A DNA stretch of 64,000 nt from Opitutus sp. ER46. GTDB lineage: Bacteria > Verrucomicrobiota > Verrucomicrobiia > Opitutales > Opitutaceae. Under the pieces are notes generated by a model that did not search any database, was not told the origin of the DNA, and saw only the letters and a program-made list of their open reading frames with translations. This document shows, piece after piece, positions 32,857 through 38,438 of the stretch; position 1 is the stretch's first letter, and every line of letters starts with the position of its first letter. Both the position numbers and the translations under genes were made by a program. The DNA is taken from contig NZ_QAYX01000022.1 of the NCBI RefSeq assembly GCF_003054705.1, positions 558,001 through 622,000 on the forward strand, read 5' to 3'.

Positions 32857-34720
<1,864 letters not shown>

Positions 34721-34840
34721 GGTGGAGAACTCCCCTCCATGAGCAGAATCGATGCCGAGGCGCCGAACCATGCATGTTTTTCGAATTTTCGCGCGTGCCG
34801 GCGCGTCGACAACGCCCCTCCCCCGCACGTCGCCAGACGA

Positions 34841-34874
34841 CAAAAAAGCCGGACCACCCTCGGGCAGTCCGGCT
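34841..34874 (-). terminator. Terminator of the amtB2-glnK operon
   Basis: Stem AGCCGGAC/GTCCGGCT (34847-34854 with 34867-34874), followed on the minus strand by a T run. It separates the second P-II gene from the first ammonium transporter operon. Confidence 0.88.
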
Positions 34875-34898
34875 GAAAGGGGGCCGACTTGAATCGGC

Positions 34899-35336
<438 letters not shown>

Positions 35337-35349
35337 TCACACGGGGTGG

Positions 35350-36843
35350 TTATTTATGGGCGGGCGAGAAATCGGGGTAGGCCTCGTTGCCATGTTCGCC
35401 GATGTCGAGTCCCTCCCTCTCCTCCTCCGCGCTCACGCGGATGCCCATGGTGGCCTTGAGCAGGAACCAGAGCACGAGCGAGACGATGAACACGAAGACG
35501 CCCACGACTGCGATGCCCTTGAGTTGCACGAGAGTCTGGGCCAGCACGCCCCATTTCTCAGCCGGGATCACCTGCCCGTCCGCGCCCACCGGCGGCAGCG
35601 CCGCGATCGTCGAGGCGATGTCGTAGTTGTAGAACAACCCCAGGGCCAGCGTGCCAAAGACGCCGTTGACCAGGTGCACCGACAGCGCGCCGACCGGATC
35701 GTCGAGTTTCACCTTGTCGAAGAAGACCACCGCCAGGACCACGAGCACGCCGGCGATCAAGCCGATGATGGCGCTCGAACCCACGGTCACGAACGCGCAG
35801 GGCGCCGTCACCGCCACCAGGCCGGCGAGACAGCCGTTCAGGATCATCGAGAAATCCGGTTTCTTCAGCAGCAGCCACGCCGTGACGAGCGCGCTGAGCG
35901 AGCCGGTCGCCGCGGCCATGTTGGTCGCCACCAGGATGTGGGCGATCGCCTTGCCGTTGCCGGCCGACATCGTGGAGCCGGGATTAAACCCGAACCAGCC
36001 GAGCCAGAGGATGAGCACGCCAAGCGCCGCGGAAGTCATGTTGTGCCCGGGGATCGGATGCACCTTCCCGTCGCGGTACTTGCCCAGCCGCGGCCCCAGC
36101 ACGATCACTCCCGCCAGCGCGGCCCAGCCGCCCACGGAGTGCACCACAGTCGAGCCCGCGAAATCGCGGAAGTTGCCCGCGCTCAGGAAACCGCCGCCCC
36201 AGATCCAGTGACCGGATACCGGGTACACGAACGCGACCAGCAGGAAGCTGAAGATCAGGAACGCGCCAAACTTGATGCGCTCCGCCACCGCGCCCGACAC
36301 GATCGTCGCCGCCGTGCCGGCGAAAACGAGCTGGAAGAAGAACTTCGCCCAGAGCGGCACCGCCGTCCAGTTGATGGCTCCGTACACGCCCGCATATTTC
36401 TCGGTCGAGAACGGATTCATCGCCGCATAGGCCGCACCGACGGCGGGCGAGTTGTCGGCGCCGCCGACGAACCAAAGGCCGCTCGTTCCGACCCATGGCG
36501 TGCCGTCGCCGAACATCAGGCCCCAGCCCACGACCCAGTACGAGATCGTGGAGGCGGCGAACACGATGAAGTTCTTGGCCAGGATGTTCGTGCAGTTCTT
36601 CGACTGGCAGAGTCCGGACTCCACCAGCGCGAACCCCGCGTTCATCCAGAACACGAGCATCGCCGCGACGAGGACCCAGACGGTGTCCGCGGCGACCCGC
36701 AGATCACTCAGATCGGACATCTTGGGAATTGCCGGCGTCCCGGCGGCATCGGCCGCCAGCGCCAGCGTTGGACCCGCGAGCGCGGCAACCGCAAAGGCGG
36801 TCTTCCACCAGAACACGGAGTCGAACTTGGACCTTAGCTTCAT
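35350..36843 (-). CDS. Ammonium transporter (copy 2)
   Basis: A 497-residue Amt protein of a different subtype from copy 1: after the signal peptide it has WVLVAAMLVFWMNAGFALVESGLCQSKN, as in AMT-type transporters. Twin pore His are seen in FAGSTVVHSVGGWAAL and LSVHLVNGVFGTLALG. The C-terminal cytosolic tail (RVSAEEEREGLDIGEHGNEAY) contains the conserved EGLD.GEHG element also present in copy 1. It heads the second transporter/P-II operon. Confidence 0.93.
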   Translation of the reverse strand: MKLRSKFDSVFWWKTAFAVAALAGPTLALAADAAGTPAIPKMSDLSDLRVAADTVWVLVAAMLVFWMNAGFALVESGLCQSKNCTNILAKNFIVFAASTISYWVVGWGLMFGDGTPWVGTSGLWFVGGADNSPAVGAAYAAMNPFSTEKYAGVYGAINWTAVPLWAKFFFQLVFAGTAATIVSGAVAERIKFGAFLIFSFLLVAFVYPVSGHWIWGGGFLSAGNFRDFAGSTVVHSVGGWAALAGVIVLGPRLGKYRDGKVHPIPGHNMTSAALGVLILWLGWFGFNPGSTMSAGNGKAIAHILVATNMAAATGSLSALVTAWLLLKKPDFSMILNGCLAGLVAVTAPCAFVTVGSSAIIGLIAGVLVVLAVVFFDKVKLDDPVGALSVHLVNGVFGTLALGLFYNYDIASTIAALPPVGADGQVIPAEKWGVLAQTLVQLKGIAVVGVFVFIVSLVLWFLLKATMGIRVSAEEEREGLDIGEHGNEAYPDFSPAHK

Positions 36844-37196
36844 TTGGGAGGTGTGTGTGTGTTGTGAACGTTGCTCTGCCCCCGGCGCGGCGCCGACCAG
36901 CTGTCCCCGGATCGCCGGACTCGTCCGGGGCGGCGCGAACCATCTGAACCGCCGCCGGTTGAGCACTGGCGATGCCAGCGGGCGTGCCATGAAAACTTCG
37001 CACGTTGCGCGGTGAATCCAGCAACGCGATGACTGGCTCATCCGCCCACCTGTCGTGATCTGCAGCCGCGGTTGGCGCACCCTCCAGGAGGGAGAGTCTG
37101 TGCTCCGCCGCACCTCGGGCCTGCCGCCCGGTGACGCGCTTTTTCCTTCTCCCGCGGGCCCTCTCCGGTCTCCCTAGTCGGCGACTTTTCTCCTCC
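36844..37196. other. Divergent promoter region amtB2/dapF homologue
   Basis: A 353-bp gap with no gene. It should hold promoters for both neighbours. A CGTGCCA element near 36985, read on the minus strand as TGGCACG, resembles the -24 half of a sigma-54 promoter, but the -12 half is off in spacing, so I do not call it. Confidence 0.4.
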
Positions 37197-38057
37197 ATGC
37201 ACTTCCACAAGTACCACGCCCTCGGCAACGACTATATTGTCCTCGACCCGCGCGACTTTCCCGCCTGGCAGCCGGCCCCAACCGTCGAGCAGATCCGCGT
37301 CGTCTGCCACCGCAACTTCGGCGTCGGCTCCGACGGCATCCTCTGGGGCCCGCTGCCGTCGAAGCAGAGCGAGTTCGGTCTGCGTATCTTCAATCCCGAC
37401 GGCTCCGAGGCCGAGAAGTCGGGTAACGGGCTGCGCATCTTCTCTCGCTTTCTGTGGGACCAGAAGCTGGTCAAGAATCCCGCCTTCACCGTCGAGACTC
37501 CCGGCGGCCACGTGCAGTCAGTCATCAAGGAGAACGGCCACCTGATCACCGTTGCCATGGGCCGCGTCAGTTTCGATAGCGCGAAGATTCCCGTGAACCT
37601 CCCCGGCGCGGCGCGCGAAGTGATCAACGAGAAGCTCCAGGTTCTCGACCGCGAGTTCACCTATTGCGCCGCCACGATCGGCAACCCGCACTGTGTCATT
37701 CCGCTCCCCGAGGTCTCTCCCGCCCTCGCCCACCGCTACGGCCCGCACCTCGAGACCCATCCCAATTTTCCGCGTAAAACCAACGTCCAGTTCCTGCGCG
37801 TCATCGATCGGGCCAACATCCAGATCGAAATCTGGGAGCGCGGCGCCGGCTACACCCTCGCCTCCGGCAGCAGCTCCAGCGCCTCCGCCGCCGTTGCCCG
37901 CAAGCTGGGCCTCGTCGACAGCAGCGTCACCGTCCACATGCCCGGCGGCCAGATCGGCATCGAGATCGGCCCCGACTTCTCGATCATGATGACCGGCACC
38001 GTGAACAAAGTCGCCGAGGGCACAATGCACCCCGACCTCTTCCAGGTCCGGGTGTGA
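37197..38057 (+). CDS. DapF-fold protein with both catalytic Cys replaced by Ser
   Basis: A 286-residue protein clearly of the diaminopimelate epimerase fold: FHKYHALGNDYIVLD, FNPDGSEAE, GNGLRIF, ATIGNPHCV and WERGAGYTLASG. In true DapF a Cys pair in the contexts EMCGNG and LACGTG acts as the two catalytic bases. Here they are Ser75 (codon TCG at 37419) and Ser223 (TCC at 37863). Substrate-binding Asn, Glu and Arg positions are kept. DapF interconverts LL- and meso-diaminopimelate for lysine and peptidoglycan. This version may be a slow epimerase, a different enzyme, or catalytically dead. ATG 37197 starts the conserved block. No other lysine genes are adjacent. Confidence 0.85.
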   Translation: MHFHKYHALGNDYIVLDPRDFPAWQPAPTVEQIRVVCHRNFGVGSDGILWGPLPSKQSEFGLRIFNPDGSEAEKSGNGLRIFSRFLWDQKLVKNPAFTVETPGGHVQSVIKENGHLITVAMGRVSFDSAKIPVNLPGAAREVINEKLQVLDREFTYCAATIGNPHCVIPLPEVSPALAHRYGPHLETHPNFPRKTNVQFLRVIDRANIQIEIWERGAGYTLASGSSSSASAAVARKLGLVDSSVTVHMPGGQIGIEIGPDFSIMMTGTVNKVAEGTMHPDLFQVRV

Positions 38058-38438
38058 CCAGCCACTCTTTCTCTTCCTCTTGCTCTTCCTCTTTCTCTCG
38101 AGGGATTGAGCAGTTTTCGCTCCGCGAAAACTGAAGTGAGGGCTGCTGCGGGCGCCCTCGCCCTCCGGTTTTGCCCGAGGAATCGGAGGTCAAACGCCGC
38201 GGCCCGCCGATCACCCGCGCGGACTCGGATCGAGAGAAAGAGTATGAGTACGAGAGAGAGTAAGACCGACACGTATACTCCGTGGGCGCCACTCTCACTC
38301 TCACAATCACTCCGCACGCGTCCATCGGCCCGCCCCTCCTTCCCACCGGCCTCCTGCACACCCACCGGGTCACCCTCCGCGCCCCGAACCCGGCGCCCGC
38401 CTGATGCCGCGCTTGCCGGGTCCTTGCGACGATAGGGC
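38058..38438. other. Intergenic holding repeat element copy 1
   Basis: The 381-bp gap contains no gene. Most of it is the pyrimidine/purine inverted repeat (38063-38266) described next. After it come further CT-rich tracts and the SDR start region. Confidence 0.6.
38063..38266. repeat. Polypyrimidine/polypurine inverted repeat element, copy 1
   Basis: Left arm 38063-38100 is a CTCTTC-rich tract; right arm 38231-38266 is its imperfect complement (GAGAGAAAGAG...). Inside is a perfect 10-bp hairpin (CAGTTTTCGC, 38111-38120, with 38124-38133). The 28 bases 38083-38110 match copy 2 at 26 positions. Confidence 0.7.

Follow-up and report, generated by a model that had tools for sequence, protein, structure and literature searches.

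Serine at both catalytic cysteine positions of the diaminopimelate epimerase homologue of Opitutus sp. ER46

The only diaminopimelate (DAP) epimerase homologue, DapF, detected in the genome of Opitutus sp. ER46 has serine in place of both catalytic cysteines, and it belongs to a clade of DapF-like enzymes that share this Ser/Ser pair. We conclude that the gene probably encodes the organism's working LL-/meso-DAP epimerase. The DapF fold and Ser-containing catalytic pairs in a related superfamily were already known; the Ser/Ser pair in a DapF appears to be new, and we found no prior report of a Ser-type DapF in the open-licence literature (subscription journals being mostly outside the scope of that search).

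The gene and its two serines

The gene lies at 37197..38057 (+ strand) of the window (the whole stretch of 64,000 nucleotides that was analyzed) and has an uninterrupted translation of 286 amino acids, with its ATG start at 37197 corresponding to the Met1 that is conserved in at least 90% of relatives in the homologue alignment. The DapF equivalog profile TIGR00652 matches residues 1-277 with 233 bits (cut-off 114.65), and Pfam DAP_epimerase (188.6 bits) is the sole Pfam match at E 1, the proline racemase family profile giving no match to the protein in that scan. The nearest solved sequences are DapFs, the top one being the Anabaena enzyme (9mro, E 4.2e-55). The residues that align with catalytic Cys75 and Cys224 of 9mro are Ser75 (codon TCG, 37419..37421, +) and Ser223 (codon TCC, 37863..37865, +), and the surrounding stretches read ...NPDGSEAEKSGNGLR... 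and ...WERGAGYTLASGSSSS..., respectively. We take their H. influenzae DapF counterparts to be Cys73 and Cys217. The catalytic cysteine pair of canonical DapF is thus absent, as the first-pass annotation of this DNA had claimed from the letters alone, and the translation also confirms its statement that the GNPH, NPDG and WERGAG motifs are kept. CT-rich and GA-rich low-complexity runs at 38060-38260 of the window separate dapF from the next gene.

The AlphaFold model of the protein (pLDDT 93.2, pTM 0.87) has P. aeruginosa DapF (8qzy) as its top structural match, with a Z score of 36.6 and 1.7 Å over 271 residues. When known structures are ranked against this model, DapFs score from Z 36.6 down to 27.4, O-ureidoserine racemase (7vdy) scores 35.2, and hydroxyproline epimerases score 26.7 or less. 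In the predicted model Ser75 is directly before helix 76-88 and Ser223 is directly before helix 224-236.

Distribution and descent of the serine pair

The catalytic pair was typed from alignment columns in a sample of 242 DapF open reading frames (80 on named genome contigs, the other 162 in genomes of the phylum, with some genes repeated), which gave 152 Ser/Ser, 88 Cys/Cys, 2 partial and no mixed pairs; no single-Ser intermediate was found among the 240 typed at both sites. Counted as different sequences over the shared columns, there are 135 Ser/Ser and 97 Cys/Cys sequences (the latter 88 from the phylum and 9 from plasmids). The 61 genomes of the window's own family divide into 46 with Ser/Ser, 8 with Cys/Cys, one with a partial gene that has Ser at the first site, and 6 without DapF. 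All 13 DapF genes detected in the five other families of the same order are Ser/Ser, and beyond the order, in the same phylum, the pair occurs in families f20, f30 and f36 (7 genomes). By genus, 51 have only Ser/Ser, 68 have only Cys/Cys and one, g82, has both, in different species. The two types were never found together in a typed genome, a count that leaves aside the second DapF copies of G058, G113, G163 and G229. DapF-like matches were also present in 27 phage records, all at less than 60% identity.

Ser75 is encoded by TCN in 124 and by AGY in 21 of 145 open reading frames, which indicates that the amino acid rather than the codon has been maintained; Ser223 is encoded by TCN in all 145. 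The dN/dS values between the gene and its relatives were calculated for 17 equal-length pairs from the 80 named loci, of which 15 were usable (L116 and L118, with values near 1, are equal in length but misaligned and were excluded), and these range from 0.07 to 0.21; at about 0.1, they indicate purifying selection.

A FastTree phylogeny of 173 rows requires only one change of state between the two types (support 99), and an IQ-TREE phylogeny of 76 selected rows, with both motif regions removed, places all 34 Ser/Ser rows beyond one branch (100/99), a split that is recovered in 200 of 200 bootstrap trees. The first-pass annotation had asked whether Ser/Ser is a conserved clade, which it is (152 of 242 open reading frames, one clade at 100/99), and had spoken of two independent losses of the catalytic bases, which is not borne out: with no single-Ser intermediate found and a single change of state on the tree, both sites seem to have changed together. 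Homologues in which the serine pair is unconserved and the gene carries inactivating mutations were looked for among the relatives, and what the relatives show is the contrary. Since most of the sampled relatives in the order share the swap, the Ser/Ser enzyme probably still works, with its chemistry altered.

In the FastTree phylogeny the window's family contributes eight Cys/Cys genes, which cluster with other Cys/Cys genes, and this grouping of sequences suggests that one DapF type was displaced by the other. The genus that has both types, g82, offers a closer view: G144 and G232 have their Cys/Cys genes at a shared syntenic locus, and the Ser/Ser gene of G082 is elsewhere, with no synteny to them. 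An in-place allele swap was rejected for this reason, and the difference reflects either an exchange of enzymes in nature or the misbinning of a 247 kb contig.

The sister group of the Ser/Ser clade, on long branches, is a pair of plasmid genes; these are the two Ser/Ser cases among 11 plasmid records typed, of 117 with a match. One is L272 on Streptomyces sp. NBC_01216 plasmid NZ_CP108679.1 (5998-6942) and the other is L278 on Agrobacterium vitis plasmid NZ_AP023281.1 (453-1349). They are 36% identical, and both adjoin 2OG-Fe dioxygenase and molybdopterin oxidoreductase genes; the L272 locus also encodes an ornithine-cyclodeaminase-family protein and a PLP enzyme, for which GntC and VioD are among the top-scoring models, none of them over cut-off. 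These loci may be biosynthetic clusters that make a modified amino acid. The position of Asn163 (below) is Val or Thr in these relatives, so their substrate may differ, and the presence of Ser/Ser genes among other biosynthetic genes means that the serine pair by itself is no proof of DAP chemistry.

Active site and pathway context

Are the residues that bind DAP retained around the two serines? The contacts listed for Anabaena DapF (PMC12039745) are Asn66, Asn164, Asn197, Glu215 and Arg216 in Anabaena numbering, and all are present in 135 of 135 Ser/Ser sequences; in the window protein they are Asn66 (37392..37394), a distal-end contact, Asn163 (37683..37685) and Asn196 (37782..37784), which contact the distal carboxylate, and Glu214-Arg215 (37836..37841), which contact the distal amine and carboxylate, all on the + strand. 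Further residues that hold the distal end or the carboxylate of DAP in the Anabaena enzyme are Gly76, Asn77 and Gly224, equally invariant in the 135 sequences, and position 225, which is Ser or Thr in every one; His165 is invariant as well. Asn11 (37227..37229, +), a proximal substrate contact in known DapF structures, is conserved in every one of the 134 Ser/Ser sequences without a gap there. In 65 of 97 Cys/Cys DapFs the DAP-binding Asn column of GNPH holds Val, which makes the Ser/Ser enzyme the more typical DapF at this contact.

Several other residues distinguish the clade. Ser226 (37872..37874, +), three residues past Ser223, is Ser in 135 of 135 Ser/Ser sequences and Gly (95) or Ala (2) in the 97 Cys/Cys sequences, a pattern that makes it a candidate co-substitution accompanying the serine pair. 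The proline racemase superfamily includes a Ser-type dehydratase whose catalytic Ser is positioned by hydrogen bonds from the residue three past it (PMC4113996), and because Ser226 and Ser223 have the same spacing this is a lead on how the serine may be positioned. The plasmid relatives have Gly at 226, and the residue three past Ser75 in the window protein is Gly78. Tyr13 (37233..37235, +) replaces the Phe that the GNDF motif normally has, and it is present in both plasmid relatives and in all 134 Ser/Ser sequences that are gap-free at this column; position 13 in the 97 Cys/Cys sequences is Phe in 87 and Tyr in 8. Lys74 and Tyr219 are likewise typical of the Ser/Ser clade. Three residues were considered as substitutes for the lost cysteines and rejected. 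Lys74 is Val in one Ser/Ser sequence and Met in the Streptomyces plasmid relative, and so is not required as a replacement base. Cys37, which every Ser/Ser sequence has, is shared by 56 of 97 Cys/Cys sequences, and Cys166, although enriched (132 of 135 Ser/Ser versus 6 of 97 Cys/Cys), occurs in Cys/Cys enzymes that include that of E. coli, so neither is a compensating cysteine peculiar to the Ser/Ser group.

The source genome (5.71 Mb, 100% complete) encodes DapL (575.8 bits), LysA (448.2 bits) and MurE (518.7 bits). The MurE scores 529.9 bits on the 2,6-diaminopimelate ligase equivalog (cut-off 373), which makes it DAP-type, and it has the DNPR motif that is described as conserved among experimentally authenticated MurEs in a paper which also states that LL-DAP made by DapL is converted to the meso form by an epimerase (PMC3681970). 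No match to meso-DAP dehydrogenase (Ddh) was found in the genome at E 0.001, and Ddh was therefore rejected as its source of meso-DAP. With DapL, LysA and a DAP-type MurE present and Ddh not found, an epimerase is required. The first-pass annotation had raised the prospects of DapL and of a second, Cys-containing DapF; DapL is there, and a second DapF was not found in the genome, where apart from two half-matches of the same gene there is one match of 26 positions (E 0.81). The Ser/Ser protein is the sole recognized candidate for the step between DapL and LysA/MurE.

No pathway operon was found that would support the role. A P-II regulator gene between two ammonium transporter genes (33218-37113, - strand) is directly upstream of dapF and divergent from it, and homologues of the six window neighbors, the ammonium transporter and P-II genes included, were found beside dapF at none of 80 related loci (flanks of up to 4 kb per side); operon context was accordingly rejected as support for a DAP role. 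The commonest dapF neighbor, identified from one representative, is sppA in divergent orientation; its open reading frame cluster occurs at 59 of the 80 loci, though antisense frames may be among those counted. Elsewhere in the genome there is a MurI gene (C16:35144-35926, 160.5 bits), so D-glutamate need not derive from DapF. A PF01177 racemase-family gene (C17:290789-291397, 72.4 bits, no NCBIfam match at 1e-5) is a possible second amino-acid racemase.

A survey of 193 genomes of the phylum that are at least 90% complete, with Ddh scored at E 1e-20, found DapF in 178 and Ddh in 42. Ddh is present in 13 of 15 DapF-less genomes versus 29 of 178 that have DapF (Fisher p 3.5e-8, which ignores shared ancestry; 11 of the 15 DapF-less genomes are from one family, and this relatedness inflates the association). 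The DapF-bearing genomes comprise 38 Ser/Ser, 80 Cys/Cys, one partial and 59 untyped, and 35 of the 38 Ser/Ser genomes are free of Ddh, the exceptions being G002, G003 and G049, which have Ddh beside a Ser/Ser DapF. Three genomes from Ser/Ser lineages (G051, G194 and G219) have no DAP_epimerase match over cut-off and do have Ddh, the pattern that a Ser/Ser protein acting as the source of meso-DAP would predict. Counting against this, neither DapF nor Ddh was found in G021 (97% complete) and G052 (93%) of the window's family, both of which have LysA and a DNPR-type MurE, or in G027 (89%), G148 and G201, the last two being at least 90% complete and from another family of the phylum. The MurE of G052 is split into two frames, so that assembly may be error-prone, and genomes with neither enzyme represent either assembly gaps or another route to meso-DAP. 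MurI is present in the DapF-less, Ddh-bearing G051 and G194, and the MurI matches of G051 and G002 have one in-frame TGA.

Some cultured relatives have been analyzed chemically (PMC5303756). By GC/MS, Opitutus terrae and three strains of Lacunisphaera contain 3-7 nmol of DAP per mg, which is almost 10-fold less than in E. coli and is accompanied by 6-18 nmol per mg of ornithine, with LL- and meso-DAP not separated in these figures; thin-layer chromatography showed no DL-DAP in the three Lacunisphaera strains, and DapL and DapF are listed for strain IG16b. Three Lacunisphaera genomes in our set are Ser/Ser, and Ddh was found in none of five genomes tested, those three included (the completeness of the five is not given). 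The low DAP in cultures could reflect slow catalysis, a modified cell wall or plain detection limits. Low DAP with comparable or larger amounts of ornithine in the cell hydrolysates is possibly linked to the unusual DapF, which may bear on these observations in cultured subdivision 4 Verrucomicrobia (PMC5303756).

Proposed role, alternative readings and known systems compared

If the Ser/Ser protein is the epimerase, the pathway would run as follows: DapL would convert tetrahydrodipicolinate to LL-DAP, the Ser/Ser protein would invert one alpha-carbon of LL-DAP to give meso-DAP, and meso-DAP would go to LysA for lysine and to MurE for peptidoglycan. Ser75 and Ser223 would act as the two bases in a closed, desolvated pocket, perhaps helped by neighboring residues. 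In the Cys enzymes a thiolate takes the alpha-proton and a thiol on the opposite face returns one (PMC12039745). A working Ser/Ser epimerase would be unexpected, given that single Cys-to-Ser mutants of the DapF-like PddB have less than 0.1% activity, and the same is stated for M. tuberculosis DapF (PMC8225329). Activity is greatly reduced in the HisR Cys-to-Ser mutant (PMC11602996), and hydroxyproline epimerase C88S and C236S suffer a "radical loss" of activity (PMC1964878). Section 7 of a 2021 review attributes the catalysis of most amino-acid racemases that need no cofactor to a thiolate/thiol pair of cysteines, cites only Cys/Thr exceptions, and describes Cys as favored over Ser or Thr (PMC8142540). 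The review also quotes a kcat/Km of 883 per M per s for M. tuberculosis DapF. The analogy that the first-pass annotation drew with the proline racemase superfamily is nevertheless sound, since a natural Ser/Cys 4-hydroxyproline epimerase performs two-base transfer and a Ser/Thr dehydratase has been described as well (PMC4113996), and published homologues have Ser or Thr at the position of one cysteine or of both (PMC1964878, PMC4113996).

What else could the Ser/Ser protein be doing? It might catalyze another reaction (elimination or dehydration, or epimerization of a different amino acid) or only bind DAP, while an unrecognized enzyme makes meso-DAP. Such a role would accord with the Ser/Thr pairs that accompany dehydratases in the proline racemase superfamily (PMC4113996), with the near inactivity of Cys-to-Ser mutants of DapF-like enzymes (PMC8225329), with the two plasmid Ser/Ser relatives that are clustered with other genes, with the PF01177 gene of the organism's own genome, with the two family members G021 and G052 that have neither DapF nor Ddh, and with the thin-layer chromatography of Lacunisphaera (PMC5303756). 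We nonetheless consider it unlikely, because the distal DAP contacts are invariant in all 135 Ser/Ser sequences, DapF absence accompanies Ddh presence, and the unrecognized enzyme would be required in 35 of the 38 typed Ser/Ser genomes. The first-pass annotation had offered a changed chemistry, a retained binding role and a sole DapF working with Ser; the last of these is now the best supported, by the lack of a second DapF or Ddh in the genome, the DapL/LysA/MurE pathway, the conserved clade and the intact DAP contacts, and the other two are less so.

The protein could also combine DAP epimerase and glutamate racemase activities, a dual role that has been proposed for the DapF of Chlamydia, and its serine pair would then be tuned to two substrates. 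PVC bacteria often have no MurI, and DapF has been proposed as their source of D-Glu (PMC5885031); in 35 genomes tested, MurI (TIGR00067) is over cut-off in 7 of 23 with Ser/Ser, 1 of 9 with Cys/Cys and 2 of 3 without DapF. This reading is rather improbable, since the organism has its own MurI, the racemase activity of the Chlamydia enzyme required both cysteines (PMC5885031), and the protein reaches 62 bits on NF038284, whose cut-off is 350. That the gene is decaying or inactive, as the loss of both catalytic cysteines might suggest, has almost nothing to recommend it: the open reading frame is intact, dN/dS is about 0.1, the Ser/Ser genes form one clade in at least 51 genera, and Ser75 is maintained across TCN and AGY codons. 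A pseudogene was rejected on conservation, the single clade and dN/dS, and the first-pass argument against decay holds in light of the 152 Ser/Ser open reading frames among 242 and the dN/dS range of 0.07-0.21.

Returning to a working Ser/Ser epimerase, we incline, by a little, to the broader view that most sampled members of the order and scattered lineages beyond it epimerize LL- to meso-DAP without a cofactor and with two serines as the proton-transfer residues, and that the Cys type was displaced by this one, or the reverse, in whole lineages. If true, this would be a natural two-hydroxyl racemase mechanism, as opposed to the thiol/thiolate, Cys/Thr (PMC8142540) and Ser/Cys (PMC4113996) pairs. 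Such an enzyme would test sulfur-free deprotonation of an alpha-carbon (pKa about 29) and would reveal the neighbors that enable serine to function where engineered Ser mutants fail, and the lineage would then be expected not to respond to aziridino-DAP and other thiol-directed inhibitors of DapF. If the Ser/Ser protein is not the epimerase, a large bacterial group makes meso-DAP by an unknown enzyme. In either case caution is needed with the TIGR00652 equivalog model, which passes proteins regardless of their catalytic pair.

The window protein resembles canonical DapF (EC 5.1.1.7; TIGR00652; 9mro, 8qzy, 4ijz, 1gqz) in whole-length sequence, fold, DAP contacts, the location of both catalytic positions at helix N-termini in the predicted model, and its pathway slot with DapL, LysA and MurE. 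It differs in having Ser for both Cys, Ser226 for Gly and Tyr13 for Phe, and in the clade-typical Lys74 and Tyr219. With the DapF-like racemases (O-ureidoserine racemase 7vdy, CntK/HisR and PddB) it shares the fold (7vdy Z 35.2) and, by position, the two-base site; O-ureidoserine racemase and CntK are Cys/Cys enzymes. PddB (PMC8225329) and HisR (PMC11602996) also use Cys/Cys, unlike the window protein. The Chlamydia bifunctional DapF/glutamate racemase (NF038284) is likewise a DapF homologue from the PVC group, of a type proposed for MurI-less genomes, but it retains and requires both cysteines (PMC5885031), and the window protein is far below the cut-off of its model. The proline racemase superfamily (B9JQV3, a 4-hydroxyproline 2-epimerase, and B9K4G4, a trans-3-hydroxyproline dehydratase; PMC4113996) has the same fold class and Ser at a catalytic position, but identity in structural alignments is 9-17%, and in its characterized members Ser is paired with Cys or Thr, whereas here it occupies both positions.
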